DNA of 63,789 bases from Candidatus Oscillochloris fontis (GTDB taxonomy: Bacteria > Chloroflexota > Chloroflexia > Chloroflexales > Chloroflexaceae), in assembly GCF_004138135.1 (NCBI RefSeq), contig NZ_RYFD01000026.1, positions 1-63,789 of the forward strand, given 5' to 3'. Shown in pieces: positions 6,081 to 63,608 of this stretch. A model generated the notes under the pieces. It made no database searches. It was not told the DNA's origin and was given only the letters and a program-made list of their open reading frames with translations. Position 1 is the first letter of the stretch, and every line of letters starts with the position of its first letter. A program made the translations under genes and the position numbers.

Positions 6081-6113
6081 AGGTGCTGTTCCAATAGGGT
6101 GTCTACAAAGCTG

Positions 6114-6230
6114 CTTCCGGTGGGGGTGCGGGGCTGCCCCCGCAGATCTTTTTTTGGTTCTGTTTTGGCGGCGAAGCCGCCAAAACAGAACCAAAACTAG
6201 GGTTTGGGGCGCAGCCCCAAGAATCCCAGA
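6114..6230. repeat. Hairpin repeat family D, copy 1
   Basis: A G-rich head (ggtgggggtgcggggctg) is followed by a perfect 21-bp stem (6152-6172 with 6176-6196, loop gaa) and the tail gggtttggggcgcagccccaag. It separates ribokinase from the PAP2-like gene and may end transcription of the latter. Related copies at 43492, 47799 and 49648 have different but equally perfect stems. Confidence 0.85.
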
Positions 6231-14462: not shown

Positions 14463-14936
14463 ATGAACACATCAGCATCTTCAAGCAATGATCCCGAAGA
14501 GACGAACGAATCTGTGCCCCATCGCTATATTCCATTCCGCAACTTCGAGAGCCTGATTGATCAGCAGATGCGTACCGCTGAAGCGGCCGGAGCCTTTGAG
14601 CAACTGCCCGGTGCGGGGAAGCCGCTTGACCTCCACGATGATGACTATGTTCCCGAAGAGATGCGGGTTGGCTTTCGTTTGCTCAAGGGGAATGGCTATA
14701 CCCCCTCGTGGATTGATATGCAAAAGCAGGTACGCGCCAGCCGCGAGCAGTTCAGCCACTGGCTGGCCCAATTGCGCCAGCGCTGGCCGCACCTCAAGCC
14801 CCACGAGCGTGCGGCATGGCAGCAGGAGTATGAACAGCGGCTGCGCGATCTCAACCGCGAGATTACCAACTATAATCTGACTGCGCCGCCGGTGGTGGGG
14901 CAGATGGCGTTGCTGCAAGCCGAGGATTTTGAGTAA
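14463..14936 (+). CDS. DUF1992 (DnaJ-homologue-like) protein
   Basis: A 157-aa cytoplasmic protein with the DUF1992 signature: IDQQMRTAEAAGAFEQLPGAGKPL, then DDDYVPEEMRVGFRLLKGNGYTPSWI. The C-terminal half is helical and basic with a coiled-coil tendency (about residues 85-140). Family members are linked by name to DnaJ-like proteins, but their biochemical role is unknown. The ATG follows gatagctc and stands alone upstream of a family A repeat core. Confidence 0.85.
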   Translation: MNTSASSSNDPEETNESVPHRYIPFRNFESLIDQQMRTAEAAGAFEQLPGAGKPLDLHDDDYVPEEMRVGFRLLKGNGYTPSWIDMQKQVRASREQFSHWLAQLRQRWPHLKPHERAAWQQEYEQRLRDLNREITNYNLTAPPVVGQMALLQAEDFE

Positions 14937-14943
14937 GTGTATG

Positions 14944-15023
14944 TTGACGCCAAGGCGCAAGGACGCAAAGATTTTGCGATGGGTCTAGCCTAAAGACTTT
15001 GCGCCTTGGCGTCTTTGCGTCAA
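14944..15023. repeat. MITE family A core, without terminal repeats
   Basis: The internal palindrome (ttgacgccaaggcgcaa ... ttgcgccttggcgtctttgcgtcaa type) is present without the outer gtaactgttcacactt ends. It separates DUF1992 from nadE and could act as a bidirectional stem-loop. The longer frame start of nadE at 15006 lies inside it and is therefore not trusted. Confidence 0.75.
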
Positions 15024-36719: not shown

Positions 36720-36729
36720 GGGAAATCCC

Positions 36730-36852
36730 GGTTTTGACGCCAAGACGCAAAGGCGCAAAGTCTTCAAGGATATGCCCCCATCAAAACCTTTGCGTCCTTG
36801 CGCCTTTGCGTCAACATGAGGTTGCTGTTTCCTCCAAGTTTGAACGGTTGCG
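36730..36852. repeat. MITE family A, partial copy (left end missing)
   Basis: The core palindrome and a degraded right end (ccaagtttgaacggttgcg) are present, but the left inverted repeat is absent. It separates the GAF gene from the next operon. Confidence 0.75.
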
Positions 36853-38346: not shown

Positions 38347-38359
38347 TCCCGTTCTACAT

Positions 38360-38653
38360 GTAACTGTTCACACTTGGCGTAACCAGAAGCCTTGTGTTGA
38401 CGCAAAGGCGCAATGACACAAAGGTTGTGATTGGAGCCTATCTTGAAGGCTTTGCGCCTTGGTGTCTTTGCGTCAAAACCAGGATGTTAGGTAACTGTTC
38501 ACACTTGGGGTAAAGGAAGCTTCTGATTGACGCAAAGGCGCAAAGACGCAAAGATTTTGTTGAAGGCTTTGCGCCTTTGCGTCTTTGCGTCAAAACCGGA
38601 ATGCTAGGAGAACTGTGAACAGTTACGATGTTAGCAGAACTGTGAATAGTTGT
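38360..38653. mobile_element. MITE family A copy 4, interrupted by copy 5
   Basis: The outer element runs 38360-38490 and resumes at 38635-38653. Its ends gtaactgttcacactt and gtgaatagttgt are imperfect, and it is flanked by ttctacat/atctacat (7/8), an old 8-bp target duplication. It has been split by a second copy of the same family, showing at least two rounds of transposition. Confidence 0.85.
38491..38626. mobile_element. MITE family A copy 5, nested in copy 4
   Basis: A 136-bp element starting gtaactgttcacacttgggg and ending aactgtgaacagttac. It is flanked by perfect 8-bp direct repeats gatgttag (38483-38490 and 38627-38634) that belong to copy 4. This fixes the element boundaries and shows transposition rather than tandem slippage. 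Confidence 0.93.
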
Positions 38654-38672
38654 ATCTACATAAGGAACCCCT

Positions 38673-43483: not shown

Positions 43484-43491
43484 CCGTGATC

Positions 43492-43606
43492 TCCGGTGGG
43501 GGTTCGGGGGCGGCGCATCCGCCCCGAAGATCTTCTTTTGTTGTGTATTGGCGGCTTCGCCGCCAATACACAACAAAAATCAGGGTTTGAGGCGCAACCC
43601 CAAGGA
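43492..43606. repeat. Hairpin repeat family D, copy 2
   Basis: A G-rich head (ccggtgggggttcgggggcg), a perfect 20-bp stem (43536-43555 with 43559-43578, loop ttc) and the tail cagggtttgaggcgcaacccc. The stem arms differ in sequence from those of copies 1, 3 and 4 yet remain perfectly complementary. Confidence 0.87.
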
Positions 43607-47897: not shown

Positions 47898-48671
47898 TTA
47901 TACGGTGATCAGGTCGCGGAAGATGTTGATGTTTTTGTGGCCAATGCCAGAAATATCAGTGAGCTGATCAACCGAGGCAAATGGCCCCTTCTCTTCGCGG
48001 TGGGCGATGATGCGCCGCGCCAGCGACTCGTTGATGCCGGGGAGGTCAATCAGGGTCTGGAGATCGGCGGTGTTGATGTTCACCAGCGCTACCGGCTCGC
48101 TCGCCTCGGCCACTGCCTCCTCGACCGCCTCGACGACCGGGGCCGCTGCCTCCTCGACCGCCGCGACGACCGGGGCCGCTGCCTCCTCGACCGCCGCGAC
48201 GACCGGGGCCGCTGCCTCCTCGACCGCCTCGACAACCGGGGCCGCTGCCTCCTCGACCGCCGCGACGACCGGGGCCGCTGCCTCCTCGACCGCCGCGACG
48301 ACCGGGGCCGCTGCCTCCTCGACCGCCGCGACGACCGGGGCCGCTGCCTCCTCGACCGCCGCGACGACCGGGGCCGCAGTCGCTGCATTCACGGGGAGGA
48401 TCTCATCAGCGGGCTTCGGCGGCTCAGGCGGGGCACCCCGATGCACACGGGTCGCAATCCGGCGCGCCGCGCCATTGTTCGCACCACCCGTGGCTGATGT
48501 GGTCGTTACCACCGTGGTGTTACGGGTTGGCGGTGGCGGAACGTGGGCATGGGTCGGGCCGGAAGCGGAACTCTGCTCCGCGACCTGGCTCTGCCGCCAG
48601 CGCCAAACCGCAAACCCCACGCCCACCGACAAACTAATCCAGAAGATCTTACGTGGCTGCAACATACACAA
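47898..48671 (-). CDS. ComEA-like helix-hairpin-helix protein with 11-aa repeat array
   Basis: 257 aa. One N-terminal membrane anchor (FWISLSVGVGFAVW) is followed by a low-complexity stalk of eight units of AAPVVAAVEEA or AAPVVEAVEEA (about residues 95-185), then a C-terminal double helix-hairpin-helix DNA-binding domain. That domain has VNINTADLQTLIDLPGINESLARRIIAHREEKGPF and TDISGIGHKNI, as in ComEA competence proteins that bind incoming DNA outside the membrane. The DNA unit is 33 bp. No comEC lies in the window. Confidence 0.87.
   Translation of the reverse strand: MCMLQPRKIFWISLSVGVGFAVWRWRQSQVAEQSSASGPTHAHVPPPPTRNTTVVTTTSATGGANNGAARRIATRVHRGAPPEPPKPADEILPVNAATAAPVVAAVEEAAAPVVAAVEEAAAPVVAAVEEAAAPVVAAVEEAAAPVVEAVEEAAAPVVAAVEEAAAPVVAAVEEAAAPVVEAVEEAVAEASEPVALVNINTADLQTLIDLPGINESLARRIIAHREEKGPFASVDQLTDISGIGHKNINIFRDLITV
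48110..48376. repeat. 33-bp tandem coding repeat
   Basis: Eight near-identical 33-bp units (core gccgctgcctcctcgaccgc) encode the Ala/Val/Glu stalk of the ComEA-like protein. Units differ mainly at one codon (gcc/gag giving A or E). Length is probably variable among strains through slippage or recombination. Two other reading frames stay open across the array only because of its composition. Confidence 0.93.
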
Positions 48672-49565: not shown

Positions 49566-49647
49566 ACCGCACTCCAGAATAGATGATATCTCATATTATA
49601 GCAGATGTAGCGCTGCTACCTATGCGCAGGGTGTGTGCAAACTCACC

Positions 49648-49762
49648 TCCGGTGGGGGTTCGGGGGCGGTGAAGCCGCCCCCGAAAATCCTTTTTGGTGT
49701 TTTTTGGCGGCGAAGCCGCCAAAAAACACCAAAAAGGTAAATTTGAGGCTACGCCCCAAACC
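49648..49762. repeat. Hairpin repeat family D, copy 3
   Basis: G-rich head (ccggtgggggttcgggggcg), perfect 23-bp stem (49689-49711 with 49715-49737, loop gaa), then a degenerate tail (aaatttgaggctacgcccca). It sits between moxR and nfo, both on the minus strand, and may terminate the moxR transcript. Confidence 0.87.
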
Positions 49763-50774: not shown

Positions 50775-50818
50775 GCGGTAGCCTCAGTACTAGCGTATGT
50801 ATCACCCAGAATCACTGC

Positions 50819-50897
50819 TTGACGCAAAGGCGCGAAGGCGCAAAGATGACGATGATTTCCTCTAAATCCTTTGCGTCTTGGCGTCTCTGCGTCAAAA
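50819..50897. repeat. MITE family A core, without terminal repeats
   Basis: The internal palindrome only (ttgacgcaaaggcgcgaagg ... gcgtctctgcgtcaa), between moxR and aroB. No gtaactgttcacactt ends remain. Confidence 0.72.
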
Positions 50898-54116: not shown

Positions 54117-54298
54117 CTCCAGGCGGGGGTTCGGGGGAGGCTTCGCCGCATAGGTATTCGGTTAAGCATCCTCTTGCGCCCCGATTGTTGACCGCAGAGG
54201 ATGCAGAGGAGCGCAGAGGAAAAACTAGATGTCGTACCCACAGGGAGCGTGAAACCCATCCCTTTGCGTACCTCTGTGTCCTCTGCGATTGTTATGCC
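54117..54298. repeat. Composite repeats between accD and accA (families D-partial and B)
   Basis: 54117-54151 carries the G-rich head of family D. From about 54152 comes family B: ccgcataggtattcggtt, then gttgaccgcagaggatgcag and its inverted partner cctctgtgtcctctgcgatt. The same family B unit lies inside the membrane-protein gene at about 61990-62140. No gene is present. Confidence 0.8.
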
Positions 54299-60803: not shown

Positions 60804-63608
60804 ATGCGCACCGCTCTGCGCGGCCTCCAGATCATCCTGGCGCTGCTCTTGCTGGCCTACCTGCTCTATTTCGCCGATCATGCTCGGCTCTTGTTCGGCT
60901 TCGCCTTCCCGCTTGATTATGGCGAGGGGCCGCTGTTGGCTCAGGTGGAACGTCTGCGCACGGGGGTGCCGATCTGGCACCTCTATGCCGATCCGAGTCT
61001 CCCACCCTTCCTCATTATTAACTATCCGCCGCTCTACCTCTTGCTGGCGACGGCGCTCTCCTACCTCACCGGCTCGGTGTTGCTGGCGGGGCGGCTGATC
61101 TCGCTCTTCGCCGCGCTGGCGGCGGTGCTGGCGCTGGCGCGGCTGGCCCGCCCGACGCCCGCCTCCACCCAACGTGAGGCAGCGCTGCTGGCGCTGGGCC
61201 TGAGTCTGCTGTTGCTGTGTGTGCCGGTGATCCGTGAGTGGGCCGCGCTGATGCGTGTGGATATGCTCGGCCTCGCATTGGGGCTGTGGGCGGTGGTGGC
61301 GCTCGGTTCGCCCGCTGCCCCGCGTCGCCCATTGCTGGCGGGGTTCTTGCTGCTGGCCAGCCTCTTCACCAAGCCCTCGTTGCTGGCCGCGCCCGTGGCG
61401 GTGCTGGGCTGGCTGCTCTGGGATCTTCTGCGTAGACGTGGGCAGTCTTGGCGCTCGTTACTCGTAACTGTTCACACTTCTCCTAGCCTCCAGGTCTTGA
61501 CGCCAAGACGCAAAGGCGCAAAGTCTGCAACAAAACCTTTGCGTCTTGGCGCCTTTGCGTCAATCAGAAGCTTTCTTTCCTCCAAGTGTGAACAGTTACC
61601 GTTACTCCTCGTTCTGGCTCCGCTGCTGCTCGGCGGGAGCCTGCTCTTTGGGCTGTTGCAGTGGGCCAGTGGCGGTTGGTTCGCGCTGCATGTGGTGGCC
61701 GCGAATGCCAATCAGTGGCAACCCGATCTTGCCTGGGGGTTCTGGCAACAGCAGATGCGCCTGCGCTGGCCGTTGGGGCTGGCGGCGCTTGTGCTGCTGC
61801 TCTTTTCCCCGGCGCTGCGCACCTCGCCCGCGCCGCTGCTCTACTGCCTGGGGGCGTTGGTGAGCGCGGTGGGGGTGGGTAAGGTCGGCGCGTATAGTAA
61901 CTACTTCTTCGAGCTGTATGCCGGGCTGATCTGGATCGTTGCCCGTGGCCTAGTTGCGGCGCACCTCGTATCTGGGAGTGAGGGCGTCCCGCATAGGCAT
62001 TCGGTTGCTCCCTGGTTGTTGACCGCAGAGGACGCAGAGGAACGCAGAGGAAGAACCAGAGGTATATTGTGCTTTGTACCCACAGGTATCGCGAAACTCA
62101 TACCTCTGCGTACCTCTGTGTCCTCTGCGGTTGATATGCTTTACCACCAACGAGGTGGAGGGGCTTCATCACGACGAAGCCCCTCCTTACCCGAACGCCA
62201 ATGGGGCGTCCCGCCACGAGGGCACGATGCCCTCGCTCCCAGGCGCTTTTTGGCCCCGGCCACCTACCTGTTGCTCATCCTCGCCTTGCTCTACTACCCC
62301 CCGCTCTGGGACCCGCTCCTGCCGCGTCCGGCGGGGCTACTCAACCCTAGCCCGCCGCGTCTGATTGTGGGGCGCTACGGGTTGTGGGACGATGCGCGCC
62401 GCGAGGCCGATCTGCTGGCCGCGTTTGCGCGGGTGGATGCGGCCTTGGGGGTCGAGGTGCGCCTAGCAGGCCAGATCTTTACCGATATGCCGGGCATGGC
62501 GGCAGCCTTCGGGGTCGAATCGCGGATGCAGGTCTTTGAGACGCGCCAGTTGCTCGATCAGGGCTTGGCCGACCAGTCGCCGCTCCTCGCCGAACTGGCC
62601 GCTGGCCGCCCGCCACTGGCGCTGATAGACTACTTGGGGAACTGGCTCACCCCGCAGATCGTGGATCTGTTGCGCCACCGCTACGCCCAGGATGGTTCGC
62701 GGGGCACCTTCGATCTCTACCGCCCGGTGGATGCCGGGCCGCTCCAAGCGCTCGATCCGCCCGTTCTGCTGGCCGATCTGCGCTTGCTACGCTATGCGCT
62801 GGCTGCGCCACTGAGTGCCGCCTATGAGCCGGGCGAGTTGCTGGTGCTCAATCTGGCCTGGGAACGCGGGGCAGCAACACCCTCCGCCGATCTGCCGGTG
62901 CGGCTCATTCTCACCACGCCCGACGGAACGCCGCTGCTAGAGAGTAGTTTGCCGCTGCTCTACGCGGCCTTCCCGCCCGCGCAGTGGCCCTCCGGCGTGG
63001 AGGTGCAGCACCTTCAGACGCTCGCGCTGCCCCCCGAACTGCCGCCGGGGCGTTACGGGTTGGCGCTGGCGCTGGGGAACGATCCGCCGCTGGCGCTGAC
63101 CACGTTGGAGGTGCAGTCGGCGGGCGGGCACTACTTCGAGGCCACCGACTATTTTGTGCCTGCGCCGATGATGCAGGCGTGGGCCGAGTTGGGCGCGTTG
63201 GAGCGGCTGGGCTTGCCGCTCACTCCGGCGGTGCCGTTTGCCTGGGGGCGTTTGCAGTGTTTCGAGTTGGGCTGTTTAGAGTGGCGAGCAGGCACGATCA
63301 GCCTGCGCCCATTGGGGCAGCAGCTCTACCTCGGCGAGACGATGCGCGCCACGGGCTGCCCCGCCGCCAGTATGGATGACGGGATCTGCACGGGGTTTGC
63401 CGGGTTGGTCGAGCAGCACGGGGCCAGCCTGGGGGCGGGGGTCAGTGGGGAGTTCGAGCGCTACGGTTGGACGGTGCAGTGGAGTGAGTATGCGCGCCTG
63501 GAACGCTGGGAGGCGCGCAACGCCCAGGGGTTAGGCCGCTTAGGCGAGGAGAGCCTGCGCCTCGCGCCGGGGATTCGCTATCGCTGGCCAGTGGGTGGGG
63601 AGGAGTAG
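60804..63608 (+). CDS. Polytopic membrane protein, glycosyltransferase (GT39/RgtA-like) with repeat-derived insertions
   Basis: 934 aa. The N-terminal half has about ten membrane segments and FPLDYGEGPLLAQVERLRTGVPIWHLYADPS, resembling the acidic first loop of lipid-linked-sugar glycosyltransferases. The C-terminal third is soluble and contains an LGFP-like segment (AWAELGALERLGLPLTPAVPFAWG ... FELGCLEWRAGTISL) also suggested in the 1844-4009 lipoprotein. Residues 221-268 are translated from a MITE and about 386-480 from a composite repeat, both open in frame. Whether the protein is still active is unknown. Confidence 0.75.
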   Translation: MRTALRGLQIILALLLLAYLLYFADHARLLFGFAFPLDYGEGPLLAQVERLRTGVPIWHLYADPSLPPFLIINYPPLYLLLATALSYLTGSVLLAGRLISLFAALAAVLALARLARPTPASTQREAALLALGLSLLLLCVPVIREWAALMRVDMLGLALGLWAVVALGSPAAPRRPLLAGFLLLASLFTKPSLLAAPVAVLGWLLWDLLRRRGQSWRSLLVTVHTSPSLQVLTPRRKGAKSATKPLRLGAFASIRSFLSSKCEQLPLLLVLAPLLLGGSLLFGLLQWASGGWFALHVVAANANQWQPDLAWGFWQQQMRLRWPLGLAALVLLLFSPALRTSPAPLLYCLGALVSAVGVGKVGAYSNYFFELYAGLIWIVARGLVAAHLVSGSEGVPHRHSVAPWLLTAEDAEERRGRTRGILCFVPTGIAKLIPLRTSVSSAVDMLYHQRGGGASSRRSPSLPERQWGVPPRGHDALAPRRFLAPATYLLLILALLYYPPLWDPLLPRPAGLLNPSPPRLIVGRYGLWDDARREADLLAAFARVDAALGVEVRLAGQIFTDMPGMAAAFGVESRMQVFETRQLLDQGLADQSPLLAELAAGRPPLALIDYLGNWLTPQIVDLLRHRYAQDGSRGTFDLYRPVDAGPLQALDPPVLLADLRLLRYALAAPLSAAYEPGELLVLNLAWERGAATPSADLPVRLILTTPDGTPLLESSLPLLYAAFPPAQWPSGVEVQHLQTLALPPELPPGRYGLALALGNDPPLALTTLEVQSAGGHYFEATDYFVPAPMMQAWAELGALERLGLPLTPAVPFAWGRLQCFELGCLEWRAGTISLRPLGQQLYLGETMRATGCPAASMDDGICTGFAGLVEQHGASLGAGVSGEFERYGWTVQWSEYARLERWEARNAQGLGRLGEESLRLAPGIRYRWPVGGEE
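61464..61599. mobile_element. MITE family A copy 11, in-frame inside a coding gene
   Basis: A 136-bp element starting gtaactgttcacacttctcc and ending aagtgtgaacagttac, flanked by perfect 8-bp duplications cgttactc (61456-61463 and 61600-61607). Element plus duplication is 144 bp, exactly 48 codons. Removing it restores WRSLLLVLAPLLLGG, a continuous hydrophobic segment. The element carries no stop in this frame. Confidence 0.95.
61966..62245. repeat. Composite repeat insertion in the same gene (family B plus others)
   Basis: Within the reading frame lie ctgggagtgagggcgtcccg (left) and an inverted relative on the right (ggggcgtcccgccacgaggg ... cgctcccag). Between them are a family B unit (ttgaccgcagaggacgcaga ... 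cctctgtgtcctctgcggtt, also at 54117-54298) and a hairpin, aggggcttcatcacgacgaagcccct. The translated segment is hydrophilic and unlike the flanking membrane helices. Confidence 0.85.

Follow-up and report, generated by a model that had tools for sequence, protein, structure and literature searches.

Why does a short noncoding element insert into copies of itself, and why at the same internal place? The question is raised by positions 38352-38661 of the DNA stretch from Candidatus Oscillochloris fontis analyzed here (63,789 nucleotides, hereafter the window), in which one MITE copy interrupts another. A preliminary description, made from the sequence alone, had read this locus as two nested insertions with target duplications, and direct reading finds all of its nested coordinates correct to the base (Table 1): the 8-bp duplication around the inner copy is exact, and that around the outer copy agrees at seven of eight positions. 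The two insertions had also been ordered in time, and the inner copy is indeed necessarily the younger. It shares 97-98% identity with several other copies of this genome, its DNA fold reaches -40.9 kcal/mol (z -8.2), and between its left end and the -35-like TTGACG of the outer copy's hairpin lie 6 bp plus the 8-bp duplication. To regard such nesting as a single accident is incomplete: it recurs at one internal site and in one orientation, apparently because insertion aims at promoters and the element itself bears a -35-like box.

Table 1. Features of the MITE family and its neighborhood in the window; "fixed place" is the -35 position relative to the left end, as described in the text.
Feature	Start	End	Strand	Remarks
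MITE copy	4863	4998	-	duplication GCGAAGCC/GTGAAGCC (7/8); TTGAGG at -35 place, -10 not clear
Older MITE copy	17091	17226	+	left end decayed; duplication not seen
Outer-copy target duplication, left	38352	38359	.	TTCTACAT; read from sequence
Outer MITE copy, interrupted by inner copy	38360	38653	+	ends GTAACTGTTCACA / GAATAGTTGT; target duplication 7/8 bp
-35-like box TTGACG in the outer copy's hairpin	38471	38476	-	CGTCAA on the + strand
Inner-copy target duplication, left	38483	38490	.	GATGTTAG; read from sequence
Inner MITE copy, 136 bp	38491	38626	+	GTAACTGTTCACA...TGTGAACAGTTAC; left (GGGG) end at 38491
Inner-copy target duplication, right	38627	38634	.	GATGTTAG, exact; read from sequence
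Outer-copy target duplication, right	38654	38661	.	ATCTACAT (7/8); read from sequence
MITE copy, 149 bp	41600	41748	+	duplication GCCTCTCC, exact; fixed place without promoter
MITE array, nested and tandem	57277	57671	-	duplication CGCTACAC/CGCCACAT (6/8)
Inner copy of the array	57304	57438	-	same internal insertion site (CTAGCCTC/CTAGCCTT)
Promoter-like boxes beside the array	57686	57714	+	TTGCCA - 17 bp - TATCAT at fixed place; predicted start 57721
6S RNA gene	57719	57889	+	Rfam RF00013, 53.6 bits (gathering 46.4)
MITE copy	60649	60784	-	no clear duplication (4 mismatches)
MITE copy	61464	61599	-	duplication CGTTACTC, exact; fixed place without promoter

The draft genome (4.46 Mb in 139 contigs) contains 151 left and 131 right ends with at most two mismatches, and the reversed-pattern controls gave no match in it. 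In 125 stretches of this genome, which include the window and three stretches chosen without ends, at least 104 adjacent left-end/right-end pairs were found, representing part of these ends. The elements show the features of MITEs in being short, with inverted ends, a hairpin and no transposase; their length is 136 bp in 45 of the 104 listed pairs, which is the mode, and ranges from 44 to 175 bp. Together with the strong fold, the 8-bp duplications and ends in common with an IS66-type insertion sequence, this bears out both the original MITE call and the element ends assigned with it. A check of the flanks across the genome, set beforehand, gave 52 exact duplications of 8 bp and 18 at 7/8 in the 104 pairs listed, compared with 0.62 and 0.38 per run when the same pairs were shuffled; the duplications are therefore not due to chance. 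Exact duplications of 5, 6, 7, 9 and 10 bp numbered 1, 0, 1, 2 and 0, respectively. The earlier claim of transposition thus has the support of duplications with at most one mismatch in 70 of the 104 pairs.

Nested and tandem copies could also be the work of recombination or replication slippage. Such an origin would suit arrays L050, L057, L061 and L081, which are without one set of ends, as well as the array in the window, two 116-bp units of which are identical. However, full nests keep both inner ends as well as an 8-bp duplication, with at most one mismatch, of the outer sequence, and such junctions are present at 38483-38490 / 38627-38634 and in 14 further events. As an account of the nests in place of transposition, we consider this very improbable.

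The window holds further repeats outside this family. Hairpins with GACGCAAAG and without full IS66 ends occur at 14936-15023, 36726-36849 and 50811-50895, of which two look like decayed MITEs and the one at 50811 looks free-standing. A second repeat family has units of about 113 nt, in which a GGTGGGGGTTCGGGG-type lead precedes a TTGGCGGC...GCCGCCAA-type hairpin, and is found at 6108-6220, 43491-43603 and 49647-49759, and a third repeat, with arms CGCAGAGGACGCAGAGG / CCTCTGTGTCCTCTGCG, has two copies at 54163-54297 and 61994-62139. In addition, a tandem array with a 33-nt period, possibly in a coding repeat, occupies 48058-48420, and the contig starts with an array of the 13-nt unit CGACGCAATATCA (1-104).

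Beyond this genome, none of five other genomes of the genus bears these ends (at most one mismatch). Relatives carry elements of 112-113 bp with the same ends and a quite different palindrome (TGGGAGCGAGGGCG...); L142, L148, L164, L230 and others in sister genera are such MITEs. Conversely, the GACGCAAAG palindrome of this genome is present in relatives within stretches that read without these ends. Since the same ends occur with another core and the same palindrome without the ends, ends and hairpin are separable modules; one copy of 65 bp (L209) is entirely without hairpin. The combination of the same IS66 ends with another hairpin in sister genera suggests that the ends may pick up abundant host palindromes. 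An IS66-type right end also stands beside another palindrome (GTAGGGGCGAAGCATCGCCC...) at L074:266-450, possibly a third core. A literature search with four spellings of the MITE core sequence found no match; the core hairpin may be a companion of GxxExxY-type or 23S intervening-sequence-type genes.

What the insertions aim at becomes apparent when the 58 non-nested sites are aligned by element orientation. For this set, pairs with two or more duplication mismatches and 12 nested starts were dropped; the nested site L048 was kept, and it was removed from a cleaned set of 53, which also omits three other sites with a hairpin in the promoter flank and one of a pair of sites with similar flanks (L062). 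No strong consensus is present within the duplicated 8 bp of the 58 sites. Beyond the duplication at the left (GGGG) end, positions -8 to -6 from it read C in 48, A in 46 and A in 48 of the 58 sites, and a second block follows at a further distance of about 20 bp. When read outward from the element, the pattern is that of a sigma70 promoter, TTG(A/C)C, 17 bp, TANANT, which lies outside the duplication and on one side, with its -35 box 14 bp off the element's left end. The left end usually faces the promoter, and the duplication spans -49 to -42, counted from the predicted transcription start.

The flanks were scored with the E. coli sigma70 consensus at 17-bp spacing over 558 combinations of place and strand. 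In the 58 sites this place and strand rank first of the 558, with a mean score of 6.31 of 12 and a z of 11.8, as against 5.1 for the next best. TTG occupies the -35 place in 38 of the 58 sites, as against a mean of 0.91 and a maximum of 3 at other left-hand places. It is missing in 20 of the 58 and stands on the mirror side in 6, and targeting and orientation are for this reason strong preferences rather than rules. Within the window, 5 of 9 rows have no -35 at this place. In the cleaned set, TTG is found in 33 of 53 sites, of which 23 have a -10 box (at least four of six matches to TATAAT, at 16-18 bp) versus a background of 8.5%; 6 of the 20 cleaned sites without TTG have such a box. Moreover, among positions -41 to -4, a chi-square of 16.3 is passed only by -35 to -32, -12, -11, -9 and -7.

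The same register is found in relatives, for which 71 pairs (duplicates included) were tested; in 34 distinct sites the two halves of the duplication differed at no more than one position. In the 33 of these with long enough flanks, mostly carrying the other core, the same place comes first (z 6.6; next best 2.9). TTG stands there in 12/34 (elsewhere mean 0.43, maximum 3; mirror side 2/34), divided by genome into 5/6 in G016, 4/10 in G005, 1/3 in G015, 2/11 in G026 and 0/4 in the others. Insertion aimed at predicted sigma70-type promoters is thus shown statistically from the alignment of sites.

Selection might be thought to produce a similar picture, if the survivors were simply those insertions that fell in harmless intergenic places upstream of genes; the left-end flank indeed scores as noncoding at most TTG sites, with a score above 3 in 4 of 38. 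Nevertheless, selection cannot fix a register to one base pair, as the 38 TTG at this place against a maximum of 3 elsewhere would demand, and it predicts neither the orientation nor the hot spot for self-insertion described below. We find it barely credible as a substitute for targeting.

The preference for promoters leads back to the nested pair. In 15 distinct nestings of the same genome, joining of the flanks restores an uninterrupted element, and nine of these, the inner copy at 38491-38626 among them, lie at one site and all in one orientation. This hot spot consists of CGTCAA (or GTCAA), 6 bp and the 8-bp duplication (GAGGCTAG and variants); its nine events were assigned by reading, and nesting coordinates are not gap-corrected. 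With 129 possible sites, the chance of such clustering is <1e-11, even if L028 and L049, which may be one nesting moved as a unit, are taken as one event. The core hairpin ends in GCGTCAA, and the CGTCAA at its foot is a reversed TTGACG, that is, a -35 box; under the promoter-register rule, an insert at the hairpin foot is therefore expected. The hot spot explains a nesting pattern that otherwise looks random.

Among the nested inserts in the pair list, TTG is at its place in 10 of 12. In 14 of the 15 nestings the inner copy points the same way as the outer one, L077 being the exception; beyond the hot spot, this is not predicted by the promoter rule alone. The outer copy of L021 has GGGG-type sequence at both ends, and L205 is a nest of three levels. 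The mirror TTGACG on the left arm of the hairpin is used in none of the 15 nestings, perhaps through its closeness to the left end of the outer element. At L049:627-801, the right ends of the inner and the outer copy both finish with the unusual bases GTTCC, a hint of gene conversion among nested copies.

The hairpin sites combine a good -35 box with a poor -10 (AAAGCC, CAAGGC), so a full promoter is not strictly needed and a -35 box alone can suffice. This bears on a further reading, namely that the transposase itself recognizes the -35 sequence (TTGAC) as DNA, with RNA polymerase uninvolved and the promoter incidental. The use of the hairpin TTGACG in 9/15 nestings accords with it, as do the sites L014, L041 (527) and L048 with AAAGCC or CAAGGC at the -10 place. 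Yet a reader of the -35 sequence needs no conservation at -12, -11, -9 and -7, which are conserved as in promoters, nor would it account for the excess of -10 boxes over background at the TTG sites outside the hairpin (23/33). Direct recognition of the DNA is, in our estimate, rather unlikely.

The transposase that mobilized the MITE is apparently of the IS66 family and of the single-ORF (ISBst12) type, as judged from other genomes. A relative of the same family (G017) has a 1439-bp element, most of which is taken up by one frame for an IS66 transposase of 461 aa (PF03050, 8.4e-48); the protein matches PF03050 and PF13005 only, with zf-IS66 (PF13005) just under the cut-off. The left end of this element equals the first 28 bp of the MITE, and its right end matches in 21 of 23 bp. 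The two ends, GTAACTGTTCACACTT / GTAAGTGTTCACACTT, begin with GTAA, a start given as a trait of IS66-family ends (GTAAGCG) in the available part of PMC11946415. Ends of the same kind enclose a 45%-identical enzyme elsewhere in the class, and an 85%-identical enzyme with a stop, from another family of the order, also has them. In the genome's own assembly, a draft of 139 contigs, there is no match to PF03050 or to the query protein P0001, and the source of the transposase has presumably either disappeared from this genome or is missing from the assembly. Among the stretches analyzed, the longer end pairs C57 (about 1.2 kb) and L041 (2.4 kb) were considered as a longer autonomous element, but each consists of two small elements.

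Whether the autonomous elements share the habit was assessed with ten IS66 copies of this subgroup that have one or two recognized ends each (15 ends). In 5 of the 10, one end has a TTG next to it at 14 or 15 bp. The boxes are TTGGCG-18-TATAAT in the G017 element, TTGCCA-17-GACAAT in the 85% relative and TTGCAT without a -10 in L179, while two copies with 51% and 49% identity, which come from a different family in the phylum, have TTGACT-17-TACACT and TTGACA-17-TATACT at 15 bp. The other five (L178, L180, L182, L184 and L293) have no -35 box at 14-15 bp. Target duplications are found in 0/5 copies of this subgroup with both ends identified. In contrast, IS66 copies of relatives that belong to other subgroups, with other ends and exact duplications (L109, L110, L130, L133 and L135), have TTG at the -35 place on 0/10 sides. 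The habit was examined within Chloroflexota. Among plasmids, 29 records hold IS66 relatives with 25-30% identity, the recognizable ones being haloarchaeal, and no IS66 relatives were found in viral contigs.

The missing duplications of the two-ended IS66 copies could be taken in favor of a driver other than IS66, namely a Mutator-type transposase (ISLre2 or ISKra4), for which the same insertion habit is described in the available part of PMC3942029, and the genome itself has one weak Transposase_mut match. Against it, this Transposase_mut locus (L294) is without such ends, whereas IS66 transposases lie between matching ends in three genomes, and in L289 and L290, two IS66 copies that are more distantly related, GTAAYTGTTCAGACTT ends stand next to promoter boxes. 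The genome also has no UPF0236 match, but the control matched nowhere, so this is uninformative. A Mutator-type driver appears improbable to us.

If the promoter boxes are real, a transcription start is expected at a distance of 49-50 nt from the left end. What follows there was examined with Rfam in 76 loci as well as in the window, which together comprise every one of the 58 sites and, for the relatives, 17 of 34. The starts of eleven structured RNAs lie between -2 and +14 nt of the predicted one (with the best spacer of 16-18): the 6S RNA, which lies directly downstream of the MITE array in the window, at -2, a T-box leader at 0, tmRNA at +6 and eight tRNAs at 0 to +14, of which three are in relatives and one is on the mirror side. 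A tRNA at L059 is on the wrong strand and counts against the predicted starts, so that 11 of 12 loci fit. This count leaves out additional tRNAs that follow a first one (L042, L253, L281), as well as three at other places of the window. In L265, an element of G005 lies upstream of a CRISPR direct-repeat match, at about 140 nt as counted from the predicted start; its promoter place reads TTGACA.

From the 38 TTG sites, 17 downstream ORFs (17 of 20 listed) were compared with Pfam; seven are above the cut-off (SSB, ABC_tran, NTP_transferase, Glycos_transf_2, Toprim, ADH_N, YaeQ), one is below it and nine have no match. A crude scan of coding potential at the same 38 sites gave 14 flanks reading away, 8 reading toward and 16 noncoding, with no clear excess of genes reading away; some of the 16 noncoding flanks hold tRNA, tmRNA or leader RNAs. 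The elements also serve as natural markers of transcription starts in photosynthetic Chloroflexales, to within about 15 nt at 11 of 12 RNA loci.

Taken together, we consider it very probable that the nested pair belongs to a 136-bp MITE that is mobilized by an IS66 transposase, aimed at promoters and self-targeting through the -35 box of its hairpin. The IS66 (ISBst12-type) transposase would move the MITE with duplication of 8 bp on insertion. At the promoter's upstream edge, its transposition complex may dock on the holoenzyme of RNA polymerase, probably around sigma domain 4 and the C-terminal domains of alpha; we infer this docking because the duplication covers -49 to -42 and both the -35 and the -10 are conserved. 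The stretch from -49 to -42 is bound by these alpha domains. On their inner sides the two ends are unequal, with CTTGGGG in one and CTTCTCC in the other, and this difference could set the orientation; the reversed -35 box of the hairpin would create the hot spot for self-insertion, giving nests up to three deep, from which tandem arrays may have formed by later recombination. A broader proposition, which we hold tentatively and at slightly less than even weight, is that the IS66 complexes of this lineage are guided by the holoenzyme, a habit that would have evolved independently of the Mutator-type elements, and that their MITEs carry a -35 decoy in a captured host hairpin, which makes them their own target and results in nested arrays, one of which sits at the 6S RNA promoter.

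The Correia elements of Neisseria are not known to derive from IS66. Like the MITEs described here, they are repeats located immediately upstream of genes, and the available part of PMC10969869 describes no fixed promoter register for them. MITEAba12 and other bacterial MITEs are similarly short and noncoding, with insertion-sequence ends and flanking duplications, but according to the available parts of PMC6382973 and PMC10969869 they bear outward promoters inside, whereas here the promoter is in the target. The closest counterpart on the IS66 side is ISDge4 of Deinococcus geothermalis (ISBst12 group), which resembles the G017 element in its single transposase ORF (449 aa versus 461) and the MITEs in its 8-bp repeat, with ends GTAACTGCTCAGCA / GTGACTACTCAGCA compared with GTAACTGTTCACA of the MITE (PMC12898284, in its available part). 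It differs in that the one insertion described lies inside a gene, and the word "promoter" is absent from the main text of that source. Among the literature matches listed, there is no report of promoter targeting by IS66 or by MITEs.

The habit itself has been described for TnGBS and ISLre2 (p-MULT 3) and some ISKra4 (p-MULT 4), which insert on the upstream side of the -35 in sigmaA promoters at a distance of 15-17 bp and mostly in one orientation, with the orientation ascribed to unequal ends (PMC3942029, as far as available). For TnGBS, a contact between transposase and RNA polymerase has been proposed, and promoter targeting is called atypical among prokaryotic elements, with two Mutator-type lineages showing it; the term IS66 is absent from this source, and its available part describes neither MITEs nor self-nesting. 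The elements studied here resemble these systems in their fixed distance from the -35 and in their orientation. They differ in belonging to IS66 and not to the Mutator superfamily, and in a distance of 14 bp (15 in two distant IS66 copies); they work like TnGBS but are not members of that family. With IS66 at a comparable distance and in a comparable orientation, convergence would become likely, and this raises the question of which surface of RNA polymerase is the common dock.
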